From Listeria monocytogenes (GTDB lineage: Bacteria; Bacillota; Bacilli; Lactobacillales; Listeriaceae), in the NCBI RefSeq assembly GCF_041765605.1, contig NZ_CP168900.1, positions 698,001 through 762,000 of the forward strand: a stretch of DNA of 64,000 bases, written 5' to 3'. The stretch's first letter is position 1; each line of letters opens with the position of its first letter. Under the pieces are notes generated by a model that was given only the letters and a program-made list of their open reading frames with translations, was not told where the DNA came from and ran no database searches. This document shows, in pieces, positions 2,203 to 22,488 of the stretch. The translations under genes and the position numbers were made by a program.

Positions 2203-2714
2203 TATAAATAAAAACCGTTTTTCTTACCAGAAAATTGAAAACCATAGCGGACATACATTTGATTGAGCGTCTCATTGCTTTCAATGCAATCTAACCGAAT
2301 GAAAGGAACGGACATTTCGATACCCAATTTTTCTGCAAAATAAATCATTTGTTTACTTAATGAAATTCCGGAAAATACTCGAGAAACCATAATCCGGTGT
2401 AAATAATATGCTGTATCAATTGCCAAATCTTCCCATAAATCCGTATCCCAATCACTTGGTGTTTTTCGAATAATCATTGCCCCCGCAAGTGCACCCGCTT
2501 CCGTTTCAAAAAGGGCAACTTCCCCAAGTTCAATACGTTGTTCCATATTATGAACATCAAAACCATGCAAAATATCGCTCCACTGGGTTGAACCCGATTC
2601 TTTTAACCAGCGAGCTGTATCCATCATCAAGTCATGTATTTTTAGTCGATCAGTTGGCAAAGCAAAGCGGACTAGAAATTCCAGTCCGCCAGCCGTAATT
2701 TTATTTTGGTTCAT
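2178..2714 (-). CDS. GNAT-family N-acetyltransferase
   Basis: The 178-residue protein has a GNAT fold: an N-terminal strand-helix region, a central acidic stretch leading to a hydrophobic strand (ALAGAMIIRK), the acetyl-CoA loop area around VSRVFSGISLSKQMI, and a C-terminal NETLNQMYVRYGFQ motif typical of GNAT proteins. The substrate is unknown. The start overlaps the end of the upstream DUF975 gene by 14 bases, which suggests translational coupling in one operon. Its 3' end is embedded in the shared terminator. Confidence 0.75.
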   Translation of the reverse strand: MNQNKITAGGLEFLVRFALPTDRLKIHDLMMDTARWLKESGSTQWSDILHGFDVHNMEQRIELGEVALFETEAGALAGAMIIRKTPSDWDTDLWEDLAIDTAYYLHRIMVSRVFSGISLSKQMIYFAEKLGIEMSVPFIRLDCIESNETLNQMYVRYGFQFSGKKNGFYLYQKELSQK

Positions 2715-3705
2715 TGTTATCTTTTGGAGCTTCCGGTGTTTCGGGTGCTTCCGGAGTCTCGGGTGCCTCAGGAGTTTCAGGAGTTTCAGGAACTTCCGGC
2801 GTTTCTGGTGTTTCAGGAGCCTCAGGAGCTTCTGGTACTACAGGCGTTTCGGGTTCTTTTGTTGCTTCTGGTCCGAAGCCTTCTGGATGAGTATCTTCCA
2901 CAAATGGATCAGCTTCTGTTGTTCCAAATGGAGTTACTTCTTCTTCCACGATGACAGTTTCTTCTGTAAAAGTGCCTTCTGTTGCTGCGTATAAATCATC
3001 GTAGAAAACAGCGATAGAAGTGATTAGATAAGGATAAACATAAAGCGAAATACCAAGAGTAATTAACCACGATGCTAAGATTAACACAAGTCCACCAAAC
3101 GTAGCACCGGCAGCAAGAGCGGAAAGTACTTCAGCAGGATCAGCTGTATAAGATGTAGTGGCCATTCCGCCAGCAACGATAACAGTACCTGCAATTGCTA
3201 CAGCAAGAGGAATTAAATACCATAGAAGGAATGTAAGAGATAGTCCAAAAAGTCTACCTTTATGTCCATTCATCATGTGGCGGCTTTCTGTAATAGCATC
3301 TAGCGCAGAAATATTTGGGTTATCTCGTAAGATAAAGAATGTTTGTGAATAAGAGTAAGTTTTAATAATTCCTGGTACGATTAATAGTAAGCTCCATAAG
3401 AATGTAAAAATAGAGATTAGTAAGTAAGCTAAGACCGTACGTCCAAATTGTTTAAAACCACTAAACATATAAGCAACATCTGGTTGTTCGCGGCGGCTAA
3501 TTGCTAGGTACACCCAAGCCACCCCAGTATAAAGAGGTCCAGTTAGTAGGAATATTGCAATCCAACCAATGACTGGGATCCAACCAATTATTCCTCCACC
3601 AACAGTTTCGATTAACCAAGCAAGTACAAATATTCCAATGGCAATTCCCCAGTTGCCACGAAGCGACTCTTTTGCTGTTTGTTTTACTTGTGAAATAGTC
3701 ATCAT
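2701..3705 (-). CDS. DUF975-family polytopic membrane protein with proline/glutamate-rich tail
   Basis: I place the start at the ATG of 3703-3705 (MMTISQVKQ), because AAGGAG lies 9 bases upstream; a longer frame exists but has no ribosome binding site. This gives 334 residues. About six hydrophobic helices span residues 15-235, with the DUF975 signature around the central YSYSQTFFILRDNP segment. The cytoplasmic-looking tail (residues about 280-334) is built from repeated PETPE/PEAPE units, an elastic low-complexity region that could vary between strains. First gene of a two-gene operon with the acetyltransferase. Function unknown. Confidence 0.75.
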   Translation of the reverse strand: MMTISQVKQTAKESLRGNWGIAIGIFVLAWLIETVGGGIIGWIPVIGWIAIFLLTGPLYTGVAWVYLAISRREQPDVAYMFSGFKQFGRTVLAYLLISIFTFLWSLLLIVPGIIKTYSYSQTFFILRDNPNISALDAITESRHMMNGHKGRLFGLSLTFLLWYLIPLAVAIAGTVIVAGGMATTSYTADPAEVLSALAAGATFGGLVLILASWLITLGISLYVYPYLITSIAVFYDDLYAATEGTFTEETVIVEEEVTPFGTTEADPFVEDTHPEGFGPEATKEPETPVVPEAPEAPETPETPEVPETPETPEAPETPEAPETPEAPKDNNEPK

Positions 3706-6693: not shown

Positions 6694-7586
6694 CTCTTAA
6701 CAATATTTATACCTTTTATCCTGATAAACTGATCCAACAAAATTTCATATAAATAAGCAATTTCTTCAAAACGGAGGTCATTCATAATTTGAATGGCTTT
6801 TTTTGCTTGCTTATAACCTTCTTGGATATGATTATTTTGCATTTTTACTAACCCTTTTAAAAAATGAGAGATATTCCGGTAAAAGGCGCTTTCGTTATAA
6901 AGGCATAAAGAATCTAACAGAATGATGAGTTTATTAGCAGAGGATAGTTGACCGCGCGAAATAAACATTTCAATCGTATTAATTAAAAGGGTGCATAAAA
7001 CACGTCTGGCACGGTCGTAGTTTTTATAAGAGTGAATGGCCTTAATGACCTGGTTTAAAAATTGAATTTGTAAATCTTCTTCAAAAAAATAGATGGAGTT
7101 AGCGCAAATCTTAAGTTCTTCAAGTGTCCACGTATCAATCGAAAATAAATACTTTTGAATCGTGCATTTGTCTTTAGATGTAATGACGTCTACTGTAAAT
7201 TCATGATATTTAAAGAGATGTTCGACCAATTTAATTCGCGAACGAACAAATGCTTTCCAGACCTCCACTAATTCGCCATTATGTTTAGAAAGCTCGCTAT
7301 ATAATAGTTCCAAACTCGCAAGATCATATATATTTCCGTGTTCTTGATTCATGCATAAATAATTTTTCTCAGCTGATACTGACAATTCTCTATGGATATA
7401 AAAGAACTCGTCCAAGTCCATATTCATCCGTTTTAAAATTTTTTCAAATAAGGTTAGTGTGATGTCGTGCTTTCCTTTTTCAAATTCGATAGCGAAGGAT
7501 TTGGAAATGATATTATCGTATAAATCTTTTTGATGTATTCCTTTAGAAGTGCGAATATCTCTCACTGTTTTTCCATACCCGACCAT
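6690..7586 (-). CDS. Rgg/PlcR-like transcriptional regulator (XRE N-terminus, helical repeat C-terminus)
   Basis: The 298-residue protein begins with an XRE-type helix-turn-helix (residues about 5-60, RTSKGIHQKDLYDNIISKSFAIEFEKG) and continues as an all-helical repeat domain. This is the architecture of Rgg/GadR/MutR and PlcR regulators, many of which bind short peptides. No convincing cognate pheromone gene is visible beside it. Upstream lie a perfect 8-bp inverted repeat (7700-7719) and the divergent IS3 OrfA-like gene, which could be a target. Confidence 0.7.
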   Translation of the reverse strand: MVGYGKTVRDIRTSKGIHQKDLYDNIISKSFAIEFEKGKHDITLTLFEKILKRMNMDLDEFFYIHRELSVSAEKNYLCMNQEHGNIYDLASLELLYSELSKHNGELVEVWKAFVRSRIKLVEHLFKYHEFTVDVITSKDKCTIQKYLFSIDTWTLEELKICANSIYFFEEDLQIQFLNQVIKAIHSYKNYDRARRVLCTLLINTIEMFISRGQLSSANKLIILLDSLCLYNESAFYRNISHFLKGLVKMQNNHIQEGYKQAKKAIQIMNDLRFEEIAYLYEILLDQFIRIKGINIVKS

Positions 7587-8384: not shown

Positions 8385-11114
8385 TTGAAGAAAATTTTAC
8401 ATATTGTTATCGCACTTAGTGTAATTTGTTCGATAATTTTAGTGCCAGTAGATTGGTCCGCAAAAGCAGACGGTAATAATAAGCGAGATGATCTTATTAA
8501 ATCTGTCAGTTTTTATAATTCAAATGGACAAAATGTAACGGCGAAGGAAAACTATAATGAAAAGCTCAATTATTTTTTAGAAGTAGCTTTTGGAGGGAAT
8601 TCTTTCCAAAAAGGGGACTATTTTAATATTACTTTATCATCTGATGCCTTACTCTATACAGAGAAAGCCTATGATTTGAAAGTGGATATTGACCCAACAG
8701 CGGTAACTAATGAACAAGTAGTTGGTAAGGTTACTGTAGAAAAAATTAATGGCTCACCAACATTGCACTTTCTTTTTACAGAAGATTCAGAGTCTTTTTT
8801 CATAAACAGCTTTGATGCGAGTTTTAAAATACAGGTGATGCCAGCGCATGGCGATAAAAACGTTATTAATCTTTCCTATAGTGGCGCTGCAAAAAACTTT
8901 AAAAACATTGGGACGAGCAGTGTGGAATGGAACGTAAATATGGCAGATGACTGGCCGCCAGTTGGAATTAGCGATTTTTCTAAAATAAGTGGCGATTTAT
9001 ACCATGCGATTTTAGTATATGAAAAGCCAAGTAGCAAAGTGAATTACGAAACAGAAATTTTAGTATCGTATCCGCTTTTTGAAAAACGAATTCCACTTGG
9101 AAATGTGCAAAATATCAAAATTGAAGTTTGGGATGAAGCGAAGGCGATTTATAGAGTTGGTGTAGCCGGGGTGGATTACGGAACGATTACATACGATGTT
9201 GGAACTCCATTTGTAGGAGGTCCTATTTTCCAAATGAATTGTACTATTCCGTTCAAAGGGATTTCTACTAAAACTCGTGTTAGTTTTGATATTGATACGA
9301 ATGTGGACGGGAAACCTGGAACAACAGATCCGTACTTAGTTAGTCTTTCTTCCGTATCATCAGCTACAAAGTCGCTGGAATTCTATCCAGTGAATAATGC
9401 TGTTACGCAAATGACAGCTACCTTTTTTGGGAAAGTAACGACGCGCTTTGAGGATGAGTTAGGCAATCCAGTTACTTTTGATAATTATAGTACTGTAACA
9501 ACACCAGGGAAAGTCAATCAAGATGGTAAATTTGAAATAGCGGAACCTTTTTTACACAATTCCGTCCAAAACGTGGATAAACACGCCTATGATACCCTTT
9601 TGGATACTAATAAATATAAATTATTAGAGGTAACTTCTCCTAATAAACTATCTGAAACAGCGGATAATTTAAGTATTCAAATAAAGCGTGGTTATCAGAA
9701 TGATGTTTTATACAAAATAAAAGCTCTCCAAAAACCGGTCATTAGCGCACTTCCTGAAATCGAATATAGTAAAACAGTGAATAGGACCATGGAAGAGTTT
9801 TTGGAAGATGTGGAAGCAAAAACAGATATTCCAGCTGATATAGACTGCGATTTAACGAATGTGAAATGGGGCGTGCCAGGAGACTACCCTGTTCTTATAA
9901 CCGCGGTGAATGAGGATAATCAAGCAGCGGATCCTGTTCCTGTAACGATTAAGATTTCCAAAAATCCCGCACCAGTCATAACGGTAGACCCAGAAATAAC
10001 CTACGATAAAACAGTGACAAAAGAGGAGAGCACATTACTAAATGAAGTAAATGCGCGAACAAATGACGGTTCGACGATAACTTCTAACATTAACGACAAA
10101 GTAAAATGGGGCGTGCCAGGCGATTACGAGGTTACTTTGAACGCGGTAAATGAAGACGGCGTGGCAGCGGAAGCGAAAACATTTATCGTCCGCATTTTAA
10201 AAAGCCCAGCACCAATAATCACGGTAGATCCTGAAATAACCTATCCGAAAACAATAACTAAAACGGAAGCTGAACTCCTTCAAGAAGTAAATGCGCAAAC
10301 AAATGATGGTTCACCGCTTGTTTCTGATATGAATGACAAAGTAAAATGGGGCGTGCCAGGCGATTACGAGGTTACTTTGAACGCGGTAAATGAAGACGGC
10401 GTGGCAGCGGAAGCGAAAACATTTATCGTCCGCATTTTAAAAAGCCCAGCACCAATAATCACGGTAGATCCTGAAATAACCTATCCGAAAACAATAACTA
10501 AAACGGAAGCTGAACTCCTTCAAGAAGTAAATGCGCAAACAAATGATGGTTCACCGCTTGTTTCTGATATGAATGACAAAGTAAAATGGGGCGTGCCAGG
10601 CGATTATGAAGTTACGTTAAACGCGATAAATGAAGACGGCGTAGCAGCGGAAGCGAAAACATTTATCGTCCGCATTTTAAAAAGTCCAGCACCAATAATC
10701 ACGGTAGATCCTGAAATAACCTATGATTCCACGATAATAAAAAATGAAACAGAGCTATTAAAAGAAGTCCGCGCAAAGACTAATGATAACTCAGCTATTA
10801 CTTCCGATGCTCCAGATAAAGTGAAATGGCAAACGCCGGGGAACTATACTGTGACACTAAATGCGATAAATGAAGATGGCATTCCAGCTGATCCAGTAAC
10901 GTTTATTGTACATATTGTAGAAGCCCAAAAAGCACCAATTGTTATAGAAGAAAATCCAGCTGGGACACCTACTAAGCCTACTAAGCAAAAAACCAAAGAG
11001 AATACTGTTAGCAAGAAAAAAACGCAACTTCCGAGAACAGGGGATACACAATCGAAAGCTATCTTAGGTGGGGTTCTTTGTTTGGGAGCATGGTTCTTAT
11101 GTAGAAAGAAATAG
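8385..11114 (+). CDS. LPXTG cell-wall-anchored surface protein with five Ig-like/LapB-type repeats
   Basis: The 909-residue protein has a signal peptide (residues 1-29), an adhesin-like N-terminal region to about residue 445, and five tandem units of about 80 residues (each with a (V/I)xxxPEI(T/E)Y start and a DKVKW-x2-PG(D/N)Y core). A Lys/Thr-rich wall-spanning stretch follows, then a sorting signal LPRTG near residue 881 with a hydrophobic helix and terminal RKK. Sortase A should attach it to peptidoglycan. The start is TTG, supported by AAAGGAGGAG. Units 3 and 4 are nearly identical in DNA, so the repeat number is probably unstable. The ligand is unknown; many such Listeria proteins are adhesins. 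Confidence 0.85.
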   Translation: MKKILHIVIALSVICSIILVPVDWSAKADGNNKRDDLIKSVSFYNSNGQNVTAKENYNEKLNYFLEVAFGGNSFQKGDYFNITLSSDALLYTEKAYDLKVDIDPTAVTNEQVVGKVTVEKINGSPTLHFLFTEDSESFFINSFDASFKIQVMPAHGDKNVINLSYSGAAKNFKNIGTSSVEWNVNMADDWPPVGISDFSKISGDLYHAILVYEKPSSKVNYETEILVSYPLFEKRIPLGNVQNIKIEVWDEAKAIYRVGVAGVDYGTITYDVGTPFVGGPIFQMNCTIPFKGISTKTRVSFDIDTNVDGKPGTTDPYLVSLSSVSSATKSLEFYPVNNAVTQMTATFFGKVTTRFEDELGNPVTFDNYSTVTTPGKVNQDGKFEIAEPFLHNSVQNVDKHAYDTLLDTNKYKLLEVTSPNKLSETADNLSIQIKRGYQNDVLYKIKALQKPVISALPEIEYSKTVNRTMEEFLEDVEAKTDIPADIDCDLTNVKWGVPGDYPVLITAVNEDNQAADPVPVTIKISKNPAPVITVDPEITYDKTVTKEESTLLNEVNARTNDGSTITSNINDKVKWGVPGDYEVTLNAVNEDGVAAEAKTFIVRILKSPAPIITVDPEITYPKTITKTEAELLQEVNAQTNDGSPLVSDMNDKVKWGVPGDYEVTLNAVNEDGVAAEAKTFIVRILKSPAPIITVDPEITYPKTITKTEAELLQEVNAQTNDGSPLVSDMNDKVKWGVPGDYEVTLNAINEDGVAAEAKTFIVRILKSPAPIITVDPEITYDSTIIKNETELLKEVRAKTNDNSAITSDAPDKVKWQTPGNYTVTLNAINEDGIPADPVTFIVHIVEAQKAPIVIEENPAGTPTKPTKQKTKENTVSKKKTQLPRTGDTQSKAILGGVLCLGAWFLCRKK
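10095..10606 (+). repeat. 240-bp tandem duplication inside the surface-protein gene
   Basis: Bases 10095-10366 are identical to 10335-10606, a direct repeat with a 240-bp period equal to one 80-residue repeat unit. The neighbouring units are clearly diverged, so this copy arose recently by unequal recombination or slippage, or was homogenised by gene conversion. Confidence 0.9.
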
Positions 11115-18116: not shown

Positions 18117-18290
18117 ATGCCTTGGAACGAAAAAGATTATCCGGATTCGTGGAAAAATCTAAGAAAGACCGAACGCGAGAAGGCAATTGAAATCGGCAAC
18201 GCGTTACTAAAAGAAGGCTACTCAGAAAGCCGCGCCATCCCGATTGCTACTTCAAAAGCAGAAGAATGGTATAAAAACCATAAAGAATAG
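18117..18290 (+). CDS. 57-residue conserved protein of the stress operon
   Basis: ATG 18117 follows AGCGAGGTGG. The product starts MPWNEKDYPDSWKNL, is charged and helical, and ends KAEEWYKNHKE. It matches a family of short proteins found next to stress genes in Bacillales (YdaT-like in part). It lies 18 bases after the oxidoreductase and ends at a terminator, so it is the last gene of the sigma-B-type operon. Function unknown. Confidence 0.75.
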   Translation: MPWNEKDYPDSWKNLRKTEREKAIEIGNALLKEGYSESRAIPIATSKAEEWYKNHKE

Positions 18291-18296
18291 AAAGCT

Positions 18297-18345
18297 GAAA
18301 AAGCGCACTTGGAAAGCGTATTATTTTCCGGGTGCGCTTTTTTTG
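18297..18345 (+). terminator. intrinsic terminator of the stress operon
   Basis: AAGCGCAC (18301-18308) pairs with GTGCGCTT (18332-18339), with an inner GGAAA/TTTCC helix, followed by a T-run. Confidence 0.85.
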
Positions 18346-18424
18346 TTGGAATCGTTTAATGAAATGGGGTGATTTCTGTTGCATTTTAGTTAAATTCGTC
18401 ATCTAATTTTAATACTAAATCAGG

Positions 18425-18448
18425 GTTTGGATTATGTGAGACGGGTAT
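18425..18448 (+). promoter_or_regulatory. sigma-B-type promoter upstream of a putative sRNA
   Basis: GTTTGG (18425-18430), 12-base spacer, GGGTAT (18443-18448). The -10 is a perfect sigma-B hexamer and the GTTT core is intact. No ORF with a ribosome binding site follows, so it probably drives a non-coding RNA starting near 18455. Confidence 0.65.
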
Positions 18449-18454
18449 TATATA

Positions 18455-18578
18455 ACCATAAGCAATGACAATGCCATTACTTTTTCTCCCTTTTTTGTAG
18501 TGGGTTGTCTTTACTTACCTTAAACTCCCTTTTATACTTTTAGCGGTTGTTAGCAGCCACTAGGAGTATTTTTTTTGG
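18455..18578 (+). ncRNA. candidate sigma-B-dependent sRNA with two UCCC motifs (Rli33-1-like)
   Basis: A region of about 124 bases runs from the sigma-B-type promoter to an imperfect hairpin (AGCGGTTG/CAGCCACT, 18542-18561) followed by a T-run (18569-18577). It contains two CTCCCTTTT stretches (near 18487 and 18526), the type of single-stranded UCCC motif that LhrC-family sRNAs use to bind ribosome binding sites. I recall Rli33-1, a stationary-phase LhrC-family sRNA, being mapped to this part of the L. monocytogenes chromosome, but I cannot check identity here. Confidence 0.5.
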
Positions 18579-18767
18579 AAATATATTTGCTATGTTGAGG
18601 GGCAGAAAAGTGTAGTAGATAAAATCTTCTCAGAATTGAGTGGAATAAAGAACTAAGAGTACATTGAACACGAATAGAAAAACGGAATATTAATCTAAAT
18701 ACTATTTACCAAAAATACATGGAACACTTAAGCTTTAAGAATTGCTAACAAATTAATAAGAACTAGT

Positions 18768-18930
18768 AATAAAAACACCTCGGACAAGGGAAAGTTCGAG
18801 GTGTTTTTGCATTTACTAATATTTGTAAATGCCACTGGGAATTCAAGTAAACAAAACATATGGGTGTTTGGGAAATCACCACTTTAAAAATATATCATTG
18901 CTTGAATCTAATGGGCTGCAATGTAGTATA
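18768..18930 (-). ncRNA. candidate structured sRNA, copy 1 (LhrC-like, three UCCC motifs)
   Basis: Read on the minus strand: a TATACT -10 (18925-18930), a hairpin with loop TTTCCCAAA, a single-stranded TTCCC, a GCATTTAC/GTAAATGC hairpin, and a terminator GAACTTTCCCTTGTC-type stem-loop (18776-18803) followed by TTTTTATTA. UCCC occurs in loop, linker and terminator loop, the LhrC-family arrangement. A second copy lies at 21089. No good -35 is present, as expected for an activated promoter. The plus-strand alternative is weaker because only the minus-strand T-tract is kept in both copies. Confidence 0.5.
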
Positions 18931-19160
18931 AATCACACACTAAATGAACCATAATGGAATCAATAATAAATACGTTTTATTCCAAATTGTACTAGACATA
19001 AAATGTATTTCTGTATTTCTTGCAGTGTATCATTTATAACACTAAATAATAACCAATCATAAATACCATGTTACTATGCTTTTGTGCATAATTTATTACG
19101 AAATAAGTAGGTTTTATTCTACAAGTAAAAGCAAAATAAACTAGAGAGCGAGGGGAAAAG

Positions 19161-20041
19161 ATGAAGAAATGGTTATTTGTTTTTTTATGTGTTTGTTTTC
19201 TTAGCCAATGTTTAAGTAGTACTGTACTTGCGGAAGATCTAATCAAAAGATTGCCTATTTATACCAAAAAGGGATAGCAGAAGGAAAGATAGCGAGTAAA
19301 CAATATCCTTATGATGCGTTTAAAGAAAATTATGAAACAAACCAGGTTACCTATTCAGCACTGAAAGATGAATTTAATACAAGTGATTCTTATGACGAAT
19401 GGTTTTCTGAAAGTTATAATTATGGTGCTTTTCCTGATGGAGAGGGGCATGCGAATTCTGAGTTGAAAATAGAACAACGAAGTACTACTTCTAACGGAAA
19501 CAGGTTGAAAGCAGCAATCCAAAAAGGAGACATACTAATAGTTGGCGGTGGAGCTGGGCATGCAGCAATTGCAACAACTGATAATTATATTTTAGAAATG
19601 TCTGGGAGTCAAAATTTCGCAAGTTGGTTCATAGGTGGGATTTCAAATAATAACCACCAATTCACTAAACAAAACTGGATTTTTGGTACATCCAATGAAC
19701 AAGGTGCTTCTTCTGCCCCACACATTGCAAAATGGATTCAATTATGGCGAATGCCAAACCAAGCGATGGCTAAGCAGTGTGCAGACTATGCAGACGCCAA
19801 ATTTTGAAGTAGTACACATAGTTATACTAAAAATCGCCATATTACTTATAGGCTTACTTCTGGAACACTCACAACGGATCCTAATTACTGCTCGAAAATG
19901 GTATTCCAATCCTTTTACTTTGGAAGTGGATCTGCAAATGTAATACAAGGATTTTCTGCGGCTTTAACAAGTATTCTTCCAAACGCTTTACCTAATCTTT
20001 TTACGAATAATTTTAAACCTTATAAAGTTGGAACCTATTAA
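19161..20041 (+). pseudogene. broken secreted YiiX-like (permuted papain/NlpC-P60 clan) hydrolase
   Basis: A signal peptide (MKKWLFVFLCVCFLSQC... cleaved near VLA-ED) runs into a stop after 38 codons. One missing base near 19238 (GAT-CT for GATTCT) restores a frame that continues to 20041, apart from an in-frame TGA at 19805. The repaired protein has about 293 residues. It has GDILIVGGG-GHAAIA (catalytic His, first) and later YCSKMVFQSFYFG (catalytic Cys, second), the permuted order of YiiX/YaeF-type papain-like enzymes. These act on amide or lipid ester bonds. It is clearly inactive as it stands. Confidence 0.75.
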
Positions 20042-20076
20042 ATATCATAGGTAAATAATTGGAAAGAGTGATAAAA

Positions 20077-20505
20077 ATGAACAAAAATATAGGAAGAACT
20101 GTAGAGTTTTGTTTAGGCCTATGTGGGGGGATATTTGGAGTTTTAGCGGCAACTACCATGTTGGGGTTTACGATACCAGATATAGGTGATATAGATTTTA
20201 GTTATTGGTTGTTATCCATTTTATTAACGAGCATATTTTCCATTTCTGGAGTAGTAGGTTCTTTGTTTGTTCGTAAGCACCATCTACTTGGAGGTGTTTT
20301 AATGCTCGGTGCTGCAATCGGTGGAGTACTGTCACAAAATATGTTTTTTATTATGTATTTAGCTTTTCCACTCCTCTTGATTGGTGGATTAGTAGCACTT
20401 ATTCGAGGGGGAGATTTTTTAAAACTATTTAGTAAGTGGTGGTTTTATATCGTTTTAGCATTTTCTATCTTTGTTCCACTTTTACTTTTCCAGGGATATT
20501 ACTGA
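20077..20505 (+). CDS. small polytopic membrane protein, unknown
   Basis: I use ATG 20077, after GGAAAGAGTG; an upstream TTG at 20059 overlaps that site. The 142-residue protein has four or five hydrophobic helices (near residues 10-28, 42-60, 70-95, 98-115 and 122-140) and few charged residues. It starts 36 bases after the broken YiiX-like gene and is probably in the same transcription unit. An immunity or partner role for the secreted hydrolase is conceivable but unsupported beyond location. Family not recognised. Confidence 0.55.
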   Translation: MNKNIGRTVEFCLGLCGGIFGVLAATTMLGFTIPDIGDIDFSYWLLSILLTSIFSISGVVGSLFVRKHHLLGGVLMLGAAIGGVLSQNMFFIMYLAFPLLLIGGLVALIRGGDFLKLFSKWWFYIVLAFSIFVPLLLFQGYY

Positions 20506-20525
20506 GAAATGGAGGAAAGAAAAAT

Positions 20526-20897
20526 ATGAATAAAAGATATTATACTACCCTAGTTATTTTATCTTGTTTTAATATTCTCTGGTTGTTGTCATTTATTTTC
20601 GCTACAGGTAGGGGGATTGGCATTAAACTAGATGATAATCAATTACCGGGCTATATAATTATTGGTTTATGTTTGTGTCTACTTACTTACGCGTATTTCA
20701 TAAATCGTATACAGCTTCGTAAAATAATAATTGCTATTTTAGCCTTATTAGACACTTTGTTTATGTTTCTAGCATGGGGAAACCAAAACATAATTAATTT
20801 TAATGAGGGCATGTTTGTATTTATTATTCCTATTTATTTTTTGATATTTATATGTATTTTTTGCATAATTGATTTTTATTTAAGTTTAAAGAGGTGA
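20526..20897 (+). CDS. small polytopic membrane protein, unknown
   Basis: The real start is ATG 20526, 6 bases after GGAGGAAAG; the longer frame from 20436 overlaps the preceding gene. The 123-residue protein has four membrane helices and ends SLKR. It lies 20 bases after the preceding membrane gene and is followed at once by a further ribosome binding site (GAGGTG) and a broken ORF. It therefore belongs to a short operon in a decaying accessory island. No known family recognised. Confidence 0.55.
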   Translation: MNKRYYTTLVILSCFNILWLLSFIFATGRGIGIKLDDNQLPGYIIIGLCLCLLTYAYFINRIQLRKIIIAILALLDTLFMFLAWGNQNIINFNEGMFVFIIPIYFLIFICIFCIIDFYLSLKR

Positions 20898-20904
20898 TTT
20901 AAGT

Positions 20905-21035
20905 TTGAGTAATTTTAACATACTGGGAACATGCGATGTTACAGAGGTTAGAGGTACACAGTTGAGGAAATAAATGGGTTTATTATAGCAAGTGAATACT
21001 TAAAATATTTTGAAATAAAACAGTGCTTTTGTTAG
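20905..21035 (+). pseudogene. broken short ORF at the end of the island operon
   Basis: GAGGTG at 20891-20896 followed by TTG 20905 opens a frame (MSNFNILGTCDVTEVRGTQ) that stops at 20973. Restoring one base near 20960 continues as VEEINGFIIASEYLKYFEIKQCFC to 21035. The two-frame continuity and ribosome binding site suggest a real gene damaged by a 1-base loss, and possibly truncated as well. Product not recognised. Confidence 0.4.
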
Positions 21036-21579
21036 TGAGCCTTTTTTATACAAAAGAAGAAAAGACAAACAACTTAGTAAAGGATCGTAATAAAAACACC
21101 TCGAACAAGGGAAAGTTCGAGGTGTTCGGCATTTACTGATATTTATAAATGCCACTGGGGATTTTCTAAGTGAACAAAGATATGGATGTTTGGGAAAGCA
21201 TCCACTTTCAGAATTTACCACAAATAGAGGCGTTTTAATTGTAATGTAGTATAAATCATGCAATCAAAGCCTTCCTTATAAAAACGGCGTTCATTTTTAC
21301 ATACTACTGATTACTTTCAAAGATTCCATTGTATCTATTTTTTTAATTAATTTTTAGGAATTACGAGAAGCTTTACCATGAAAAAGCGTTTTTTCGCGGG
21401 TTTTTAAGAAATGAATTTTCTACTATTAATGAGTTTTAAGACCTGCGTCATTAGTCCTGATTTTGTTTGTGAGTTGAAATGTGTCTATTTTATGAATCTT
21501 TCAATTTTAACCTTGTGTAATATGCAAGTGGCGTATATCCTTAAAGCTATAACAAAATTTAATTACAACAGGAGGAAAT
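21036..21579. other. intergenic region with second copy of the structured element
   Basis: No protein gene with a ribosome binding site is seen; a 63-codon frame at 21411 has none. The first 220 bases hold copy 2 of the structured RNA element. Bases 21290-21560 are AT-rich, with a small GCG-TTTTTT-CGC hairpin near 21390 and the leader of the DUF805 gene. Confidence 0.6.
21089..21253 (-). ncRNA. candidate structured sRNA, copy 2 (LhrC-like, three UCCC motifs)
   Basis: Same plan as the element at 18768: TATACT (21248-21253, minus strand), hairpin GGATG/CATCC with loop TTTCCCAAA, linker ATCCCC, hairpin GGCATTTA/TAAATGCC, and terminator stem CACCTCGAAC (21097-21106) / GTTCGAGGTG (21115-21124) with loop CTTTCCCTTG and TTTTTATTA tail. 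Differences from copy 1 mostly fall in linkers or keep pairing (G-U to A-U in the terminator stem), as expected for a functional RNA. Length about 153 bases. Confidence 0.5.
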
Positions 21580-21993
21580 ATGGGATTTTTAGAAGCTTAT
21601 AAATCATTTTGGAAAAATTATATCAATTTTAATGGTCGCTCATCGCGTTCAGCATATTGGTATGCAATGTTAGGAAACGGTATTATTTTAGTAGCACTTT
21701 ATATTTGTTTGGCTGTTTCAGGTTTTTCTTTATTTATGACTGGTGGTACAGGAGCAACAAGAGTATCTGGTGGACTAGCGATTGTATTTATAATTGCTTT
21801 GTGGGCCTATCTTTTAGCAATACTTATTCCAGCCATTAGTATTACTGTTAGACGTTTTCATGATTCAGGGAAAAGCGGTTTTATGGCGCTTTTATATTTT
21901 GTACCCGGAGTTGGAAGCCTTCTTATTTTAATATTTATGTGTTTTGCTAGTGATGCCGCGAATCAATACGGCGAGTCTTCGGACGATATTTAA
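21580..21993 (+). CDS. DUF805-family membrane protein (first of a tandem pair)
   Basis: The 137-residue protein shows the DUF805 pattern: an amphipathic N-terminus FLEAYKSFWKNYINFNGRSSRSAYWY, a helix pair, the RRFHDSGKSG loop near residue 90, and a last helix followed by NQYG. DUF805 proteins are small inner-membrane proteins of unknown function. ATG 21580 follows CAGGAGGAAAT. The paralogue downstream has an almost identical start region, so the pair arose by duplication. A hairpin (22002-22030) between them could end some transcripts. Confidence 0.8.
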   Translation: MGFLEAYKSFWKNYINFNGRSSRSAYWYAMLGNGIILVALYICLAVSGFSLFMTGGTGATRVSGGLAIVFIIALWAYLLAILIPAISITVRRFHDSGKSGFMALLYFVPGVGSLLILIFMCFASDAANQYGESSDDI

Positions 21994-22077: not shown

Positions 22078-22488
22078 ATGGGGTTTTTAGAAGCTTATAC
22101 GTCATTTTGGAAAAATTATGTGAATTTTAGTGGTCGTGCACCAGGTTCTGCATATTGGTATGTAGTGGTTTGGAACATGATGATTATTGTACCTCTTCGT
22201 GTTATGGCAGCTATTTTTAGCGCTTCATCAATGATAGATGGGGTTGGCTATGCTGGAATCGTAGTTTCGTTCTTTCTTATTGGTCTACGGTGGTTGTATT
22301 GGTTGGGCACTATAGTCCCACTAACTAGCCTTATTGTAAGACGATTACACGACACTGGGAGAAGTGGTTATCTTGCTTTCCTTGCTTTAATTCCAGTCGT
22401 TGGATCCATTATTATTATAATATTTATGTGTTTTGAAAGTGATGGACCAAATAAATATGGAGATGTCTATCAAAAATCAGAGGTTTAA
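22078..22488 (+). CDS. DUF805-family membrane protein (second of a tandem pair)
   Basis: The 136-residue paralogue of the preceding gene shares GFLEAY-SFWKNYVNFSGR, RRLHDTGRSGY and a C-terminal FES-GPNKYG motif. ATG 22078 follows GCAGGAGGAAAT, the same ribosome-binding region as copy 1. It differs mainly in the first two membrane helices. It ends at a strong terminator shared with the convergent mogR operon. Function unknown. Confidence 0.8.
   Translation: MGFLEAYTSFWKNYVNFSGRAPGSAYWYVVVWNMMIIVPLRVMAAIFSASSMIDGVGYAGIVVSFFLIGLRWLYWLGTIVPLTSLIVRRLHDTGRSGYLAFLALIPVVGSIIIIIFMCFESDGPNKYGDVYQKSEV

Follow-up and report, generated by a model that had tools for sequence, protein, structure and literature searches.

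Small RNAs (sRNAs) of the Listeria LhrC family (LhrC1-5, Rli22, and Rli33-1) are described as 105 to 121 nt long, with two UCCC motifs each (PMC8079631), and UCCC is treated as a motif through which LhrC and other Gram-positive sRNAs pair with their targets (PMC4132741). Rli33 is reviewed as a longer transcript containing Rli33-1 and Rli33-2 (PMC8079631); the rli33 promoter is reported to be sigB dependent (PMC8066629), and Rli33-1 is listed among the Listeria sRNAs with an infection phenotype when deleted (PMC8079631, PMC3179153). Here we describe a direct repeat at the Rli33 locus in a 64,000-nt stretch of a 2.98-Mb Listeria chromosome (G000:C1:698001-762000; hereafter, the window). We lean toward reading this repeat, whose copies we call the element, as the gene for an independent minus-strand sRNA of ~150 nt that lies tail to tail with an Rli33-1-like sRNA and is duplicated here.

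A sequence-only reading of the window had proposed a direct repeat of ~160 bp, and this was borne out: 18768-18935 and 21088-21258 are ~165-nt copies with 81.8% identity over 165 aligned columns, and the repeat families D2, D5, D7, and D9 found in the window are all spaced 2320-2323 nt apart. A crude ungapped comparison of the copies gave 76 matches against a maximum of 70 over 294 random window positions, just mildly above chance, as this comparison takes no account of indels. The minus-strand anatomy proposed for the repeat (TATACT, three UCCC sites, a middle hairpin, and a U-tailed terminator) can be read directly in both copies: the −10 TATACT lies at 18930-18925 in copy 1 and 21253-21248 in copy 2, followed by a TTTCCCAAA loop (loop A), a TTCCC or TCCCC linker, a GCATTTA/TAAATGC-type hairpin, and a terminator with loop CTTTCCCTTG and tail TTTTTATT (Table 1). 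The RNA predicted from these parts has three stem-loops and would be ~150 nt long, its ends being placed from the −10 and the terminator. The block TGATTTATACTACATT is identical in both copies and has no further match in the window at ≤2 mismatches (0.11 expected). Genome-wide, this promoter block occurs exactly at the two element sites only and with 3 mismatches at 11 other places; the backwards control of the pattern gave 4 places.

We built a covariance model, R1, from seven element copies (the two in the window and five others); copy 1 and copy 2, both in its training set, score 212.6 and 181.1 bits. A search of 25 Listeria genomes with R1 located the element in 5 of them. All seven copies are at the Rli33 locus, two each in G000 (the window genome) and G012 and one each in G017, G018, and G019; no copy was found by R1 at another locus in the 36 genomes that make up our wider profile searches. 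Between G000 and G012, corresponding copies are 97-99% identical. Over 5.4 kb, G017 matches L. monocytogenes NCTC7974 at 99.98% identity and G018 matches L. monocytogenes FDAARGOS_57 at 99.8%, so those L. monocytogenes strains have one element copy. We take the element region to correspond to the lmo0671-lmo0672 gap: the lmo numbers are assigned by our own reading of the L. monocytogenes NCTC7974 record, in which the oxidoreductase, DUF805, and mogR genes stand in the same order. The window lacks the lmo0671-like gene of G018, and its place is taken by 18288-18374 alone.

The element is documented by its sequence, its repeats, its conservation, and a strand bias, the last of which leads us to favor the minus strand. 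Over the seven copies, columns are invariant at 17 of 18 positions in the promoter block, 10 of 32 in the leader, 22 of 28 in stem-loop A, 19 of 26 in the linker, 19 of 26 in the middle hairpin, and 29 of 38 in the terminator; an invariant −10 block, a variable leader, and a conserved body are the pattern of a minus-strand promoter, free leader, and RNA body. Six of the varying base pairs, read by eye, include a G-U pair that exists on the minus strand only (A-C on the plus strand), one of the six also showing a plus-only wobble in three sequences, and the consensus covariation term is −0.61 for the minus strand and +1.39 for the plus strand. Beyond the terminator stem, 5-7 of the 8 tail letters on the minus strand are T in all seven copies (one tail counted over 7 letters). 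The plus-strand tail has 3 T among its 8 letters in five copies, and 5 T in the two copy-1 sequences. Thus, the invariant −10 block beside a variable leader, the mostly minus-only G-U changes, and the fuller U-tail together argue for the minus strand.

Several observations weigh against this assignment. Folds of the plus strand are also stable (folding z, −3.95 for copy 1 and −4.70 for copy 2, versus −4.95 and −6.44 on the minus strand), and the lowest-energy fold of copy 1 has a poor loop A stem and a partly paired linker; for copy 2 and the G018 copy, folding leaves the UCCC of loop A and linker single stranded, which is less clear in copy 1. By eye, no consensus −35 is seen upstream of the element's TATACT. 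A promoter scan showed no excess (12 found versus 14.5 expected), and its sole match at copy 2 (21267-21238, minus strand) uses another −10; a terminator scan gave none in the region, perhaps because the tail bases pair, in our own reading. Several differences between copies had been said to keep base pairing, and 99.0% of 194 cells over the seven copies are indeed paired, but only a single pair has both partners changed, a level also attained by 272 of 500 shuffles; covariation alone is therefore weak. Finally, Rfam RF01469 (rli33), a 532-nt model, treats the region as a plus-strand transcript.

An alternative that we consider unlikely is a plus-strand function, in which the element would form the structured middle part of a long Rli33 read-through, possibly a peptide leader, or a bidirectional terminator. 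RF01469 scores 116.6 and 109.8 bits on the plus strand of the two copies (gathering score, 46) and spans, on that strand, the Rli33-1-like sRNA in its first part, the element segment, and a peptide region; it matches in 17 of the 25 Listeria genomes and is above its cutoff in 10. Such a transcript agrees with the review of Rli33 as a longer RNA holding Rli33-1 and Rli33-2 (PMC8079631), as well as with the stable plus-strand folds. However, the positive plus-strand covariation term and the T-poor plus-strand tail in five of seven copies are at odds with it, an invariant minus-strand −10 block beside a variable leader is left unexplained, and in the window the distance from the Rli33-1-like sRNA is ~190 nt to copy 1 and 2.5 kb to copy 2.

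If the element is the gene for a minus-strand sRNA, we infer that RNA polymerase would start from the TATACT block and that transcription would end at the U-tailed terminator. The C-rich UCCC loops would then pair with G-rich Shine-Dalgarno regions and block translation, an action proposed here as for other UCCC-type sRNAs of low-GC Gram-positive bacteria. A ranking of candidate targets by duplex energy against 52 window ribosome sites plus Bmp and SBP_bac_5 genes (starts corrected for five genes, L115-L119; L120 left out) had no power and was not used, because known LhrCs did not rank these genes high and an antisense control placed the Bmp gene second of 52. We presume that L115-L119 include tcsA and oppA, which, with lapB, are genes that LhrC family sRNAs repress by pairing.

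We hold as doubtful a broader proposal, that the Rli33 locus encodes a second, overlooked sRNA that is convergent with Rli33-1, has a different promoter from it, carries three UCCC motifs, acts on mRNAs and also quenches Rli33, and is duplicated here; the minus-strand RNA, being complementary to Rli33 read-through RNA, could do the quenching. If there is such a second sRNA on the opposite strand, 'rli33' deletions and tiling-array calls may conflate two RNAs, and sRNA dosage would vary between strains, with two copies versus one. Published annotation may already include the element's RNA, for example as rli33-3, since rli33-3 is described as sitting in a locus merged with rli33 irrespective of orientation (PMC5689173). 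Our literature searches, which did not cover Mollerup 2016, Wurtzel 2012, or Mraheil 2011, found no description of a minus-strand RNA at this locus. Neither rli33 nor lmo0671 is named in the main texts of four RNA sequencing papers (PMC4186813, PMC4627465, PMC3911899, and PMC2813243), whose supplements (one with 441 candidate noncoding RNAs) were outside the scope of that search.

The plus-strand partner in this arrangement, which the sequence-only reading missed, lies on the opposite strand from the repeat, ~190 nt from copy 1; in G018, G017, and G019, it and the element are tail to tail and at most ~20 nt apart. This Rli33-1-like sRNA is kept in all 14 loci compared, which were drawn from the 17 genomes with RF01469 matches, leaving out G004 and G010. 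A sigB pattern precedes it in the window, as it does at 12 other loci from 11 genomes, and was unmatched before it in L016, L017, L018, L024, and L025. The stretch at 18456-18576 appears to be the published Rli33-1, an identification made by fit: a length within 105-121 nt, two UCCC motifs, sigB dependence, and a place in the lmo0671-lmo0672 gap. Its distribution speaks against this placement, because the stretch that we assign to Rli33-1 is more widespread than three studies describe for rli33 RNAs: rli33-1 is there confined to a subset of lineage II strains (PMC3556495) and missing from L. innocua (PMC3179153), and rli33-3_rli33 is found in lineages I and II only (PMC5689173). Those studies may have scored a longer sequence. 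We rejected the repeat itself as Rli33-1, because the sigB promoter and the two-UCCC plus-strand sRNA belong to the neighbor at 18425-18576; as far as Rli33-1 is concerned, this also sets aside the earlier suggestion that the copies could be unannotated copies of an LhrC family member. G022 (L110) has a full copy of the Rli33-1-like sRNA and, in addition, two partial matches to its 3′ portion, at 7447-7504 and 9173-9234.

The element had also been proposed as an additional LhrC family member. We regard it as quite unlikely that it is a true, diverged eighth member that shares descent and targets with LhrC1-5, Rli22, and Rli33-1. In favor of kinship, all seven copies have, by sequence, UCCC in each of loop A, the linker, and the terminator loop, and at E ≤ 0.001 R1 matches nothing outside the element in the 36 genomes except LhrC loci in G030 and G034, from another genus of the bacterial family (32-33 bits). 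The weight of these matches is reduced by a strand-reversed R1 control, which matches the same G030 LhrC locus, and by a coding region with a terminator that scores 30.5 bits with R1. When the Rfam LhrC model, RF00616, was applied as the sequence-only reading had suggested, it found nothing on copy 1 or copy 2 up to E = 10; elsewhere in the genome it finds six loci above cutoff, and Rli22 is found by its own model. Likewise, R2, a sequence-only model that we built from LhrC, Rli22, and Rli33-1, scores at best 6.9 bits (E 0.015) for copy 1 and 2.4 bits for copy 2, compared to 6.3 bits at an unrelated place and 83 bits on the Rli33-1-like sRNA, its own training member. In the other direction, R1 gives 11-13 bits on the LhrC loci of the window genome, none of which is listed genome-wide at E ≤ 10. 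The extra hairpin and greater length of the element also count against membership. Because its anatomy is LhrC-like while the model scores are absent or weak, we describe the element as one that would work like LhrC but is not shown to be LhrC: comparison of the seven copies supports the original suggestion of a minus-strand sRNA whose loop, linker, and terminator loop each carry UCCC, and leaves the family assignment unsupported.

The same searches yielded observations on LhrC loci themselves. At G000:C1:250654-251581, five tandem LhrC copies plus an LhrC5-like one are above the Rfam cutoff; this cluster has one copy more than the four, LhrC1-4, described in PMC8079631. A sub-cutoff RF00616 match at G000:840807 (39 bits) was dropped as the terminator after a surface-protein-like gene. 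LhrC-like RNAs are numerous in G030 and G034, with 11 and 9 LhrC-like matches at E ≤ 0.001 (contigs C24 and C62 among others), all below the Rfam cutoff.

A minus-strand RNA could alternatively be a cis-antisense regulator, comparable to those of type I toxin-antitoxin systems, of the Rli33 read-through or of the mRNA for a hydrophobic peptide, which we judge improbable. A section of the plus-strand region covered by the Rli33 model is complementary to the element's RNA, and a ~33-amino-acid hydrophobic peptide with ribosome-site-like sequence comes next in G018 and G017. Yet relatives of this peptide occur at other loci in the element-free genomes G016, G020, G021, and G013, and the element is kept in the window and G012 despite a broken peptide gene and also in G019, whose best match to the peptide has an E of 0.475.

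Least probable of all, and very unlikely, is that the element is simply a repeat of a mobile cassette carried along with the island between the copies: that island is far more alike in G000 and G012 than its flanks are and phage- and plasmid-like pieces lie close by, but G017, G018, and G019 have a single copy without the island, R1 found no copy at another locus in the 36 genomes, and of the three records examined among five plasmid- and phage-collection records matching the element region, one is 2.9 Mb in size, another includes the surrounding chromosomal genes, and the third is unannotated.

The sequence between the copies had been called a decaying island, correctly so: its secreted-protein gene is broken in the window and intact in G012. 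The intact G012 protein has no Pfam match and shares 50.5% identity with LIN_RS15785, which adjoins an IS6 transposase on Listeria plasmid pLI100. Because 18374-20941 is 97.2% identical between G000 and G012, compared with ~90% in the flanks, and the element copies are 97-99% identical to their counterparts, the island was probably exchanged between the two lineages. The earlier proposal that homologous recombination between the copies could delete the island is possible, but the longest exact match between copy 1 and copy 2 is 22 nt, and no allele that we examined proves such a deletion. In the suggested comparison with strains lacking the island, G017, G018, and G019 carry one copy without it, and none proves recombination. 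The right flank of the element in G019 is that of copy 2 (82%), and this one-copy allele lacks the phage-like segment left of copy 1, so no recombination deletion is shown; in G017 and G018, the right flanks match neither copy's flank clearly (best, 22 nt, E 0.038).

Relatives of the island secreted protein are on Listeria plasmids, e.g., L121 (pLI100) 2579-3484, and 21 of the 22 plasmid-collection records matching it are from Listeria. The gene for the ~33-codon hydrophobic peptide, which has no Pfam match, occurs with ribosome-site-like sequence at different loci (L010 1919-2020, L014 1623-1720, and in G020, G021, and G013). To the right of copy 2, tandem DUF805 genes (21580-21993 and 22078-22488) are 76% identical over 156 nt at their starts; G018 has one. 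OR848099.1 (L125), named Listeria phage LM 4-14-1, carries the chromosomal sRNA locus, which suggests host DNA in that assembly.

Table 1. Features of the element copies, the Rli33-1-like sRNA, and the island (window coordinates)
Feature	Position	Strand	Basis
Copy 1, predicted ~150-nt sRNA transcript with loop A, linker, middle hairpin, and terminator	18768..18917	−	Repeat, fold z −4.95, R1; start placed from −10
Copy 1, loop A TTTCCCAAA	18867..18875	−	Sequence, copy alignment
Copy 1, linker TTCCCAGT	18834..18841	−	Sequence; partly paired in lowest-energy fold
Copy 1, middle hairpin	18809..18833	−	Repeat and fold
Copy 1, terminator loop CTTTCCCTTG	18785..18794	−	Sequence and fold
Copy 1, conserved promoter block, −10 TATACT	18920..18935	−	Conservation, pattern search
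Copy 2, predicted sRNA transcript, ~153 nt	21088..21240	−	Repeat, fold z −6.44, R1; predicted start
Copy 2, loop A TTTCCCAAA	21189..21197	−	Sequence, copy alignment
Copy 2, linker AATCCCCAGT	21154..21163	−	Sequence, copy alignment
Copy 2, middle hairpin	21128..21153	−	Repeat and fold
Copy 2, terminator loop CTTTCCCTTG	21106..21115	−	Sequence and fold
Copy 2, conserved promoter block, −10 TATACT	21243..21258	−	Conservation, pattern search
sigB-type promoter, GTTT-N14-GGGTAT, of Rli33-1-like sRNA	18425..18448	+	Pattern scan; sigB dependence of rli33 as reported in PMC8066629
Rli33-1-like sRNA, ~121 nt (UCCC loop A, UCCC linker, terminator)	18456..18576	+	Sequence, fold z −4.25, inside RF01469; start placed from promoter
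~140 nt like Listeria phage A006 gp27 (71%), left of copy 1	18579..18718	+	Sequence match
Broken secreted-protein gene (frame lost near start, internal stop)	19161..20041	+	Comparison with intact G012 gene
Small membrane protein, weak DUF4064 match below curated cutoff (searched from 20083)	20077..20505	+	
Small membrane protein, no Pfam match	20526..20897	+	
Remnant of ~33-amino-acid hydrophobic peptide gene, intact in G018, G017, and G016	20905..20973	+	

Set beside known systems, the element is close in design to the LhrC family, with which it shares UCCC in loop A and in a single-stranded linker, presence in more than one copy, and occurrence in Listeria; with LhrC1-5 it also shares a third UCCC in the terminator loop. 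It differs from the family in its predicted length (~150 nt versus 105-121 nt), its additional middle hairpin, the lack of an Rfam LhrC match, and its mostly UUUCCC rather than CUCCC motifs. Family members are controlled by sigB or LisR; in the loci scanned, no sigB pattern was found upstream of the element on the minus strand. With Rli33, Rli33-1, and Rli33-2 it has in common the intergenic locus, the element lying inside the 532-nt RF01469 model; unlike Rli33-1, it is on the opposite strand, and it is the plus-strand neighbor with a sigB promoter that fits Rli33-1. RsaE, FsrA, and SprD, from other genera of low-GC Gram-positive bacteria, are likened to the element by motif only: as presented in PMC4132741, they too have UCCC as the proposed site of Shine-Dalgarno pairing.

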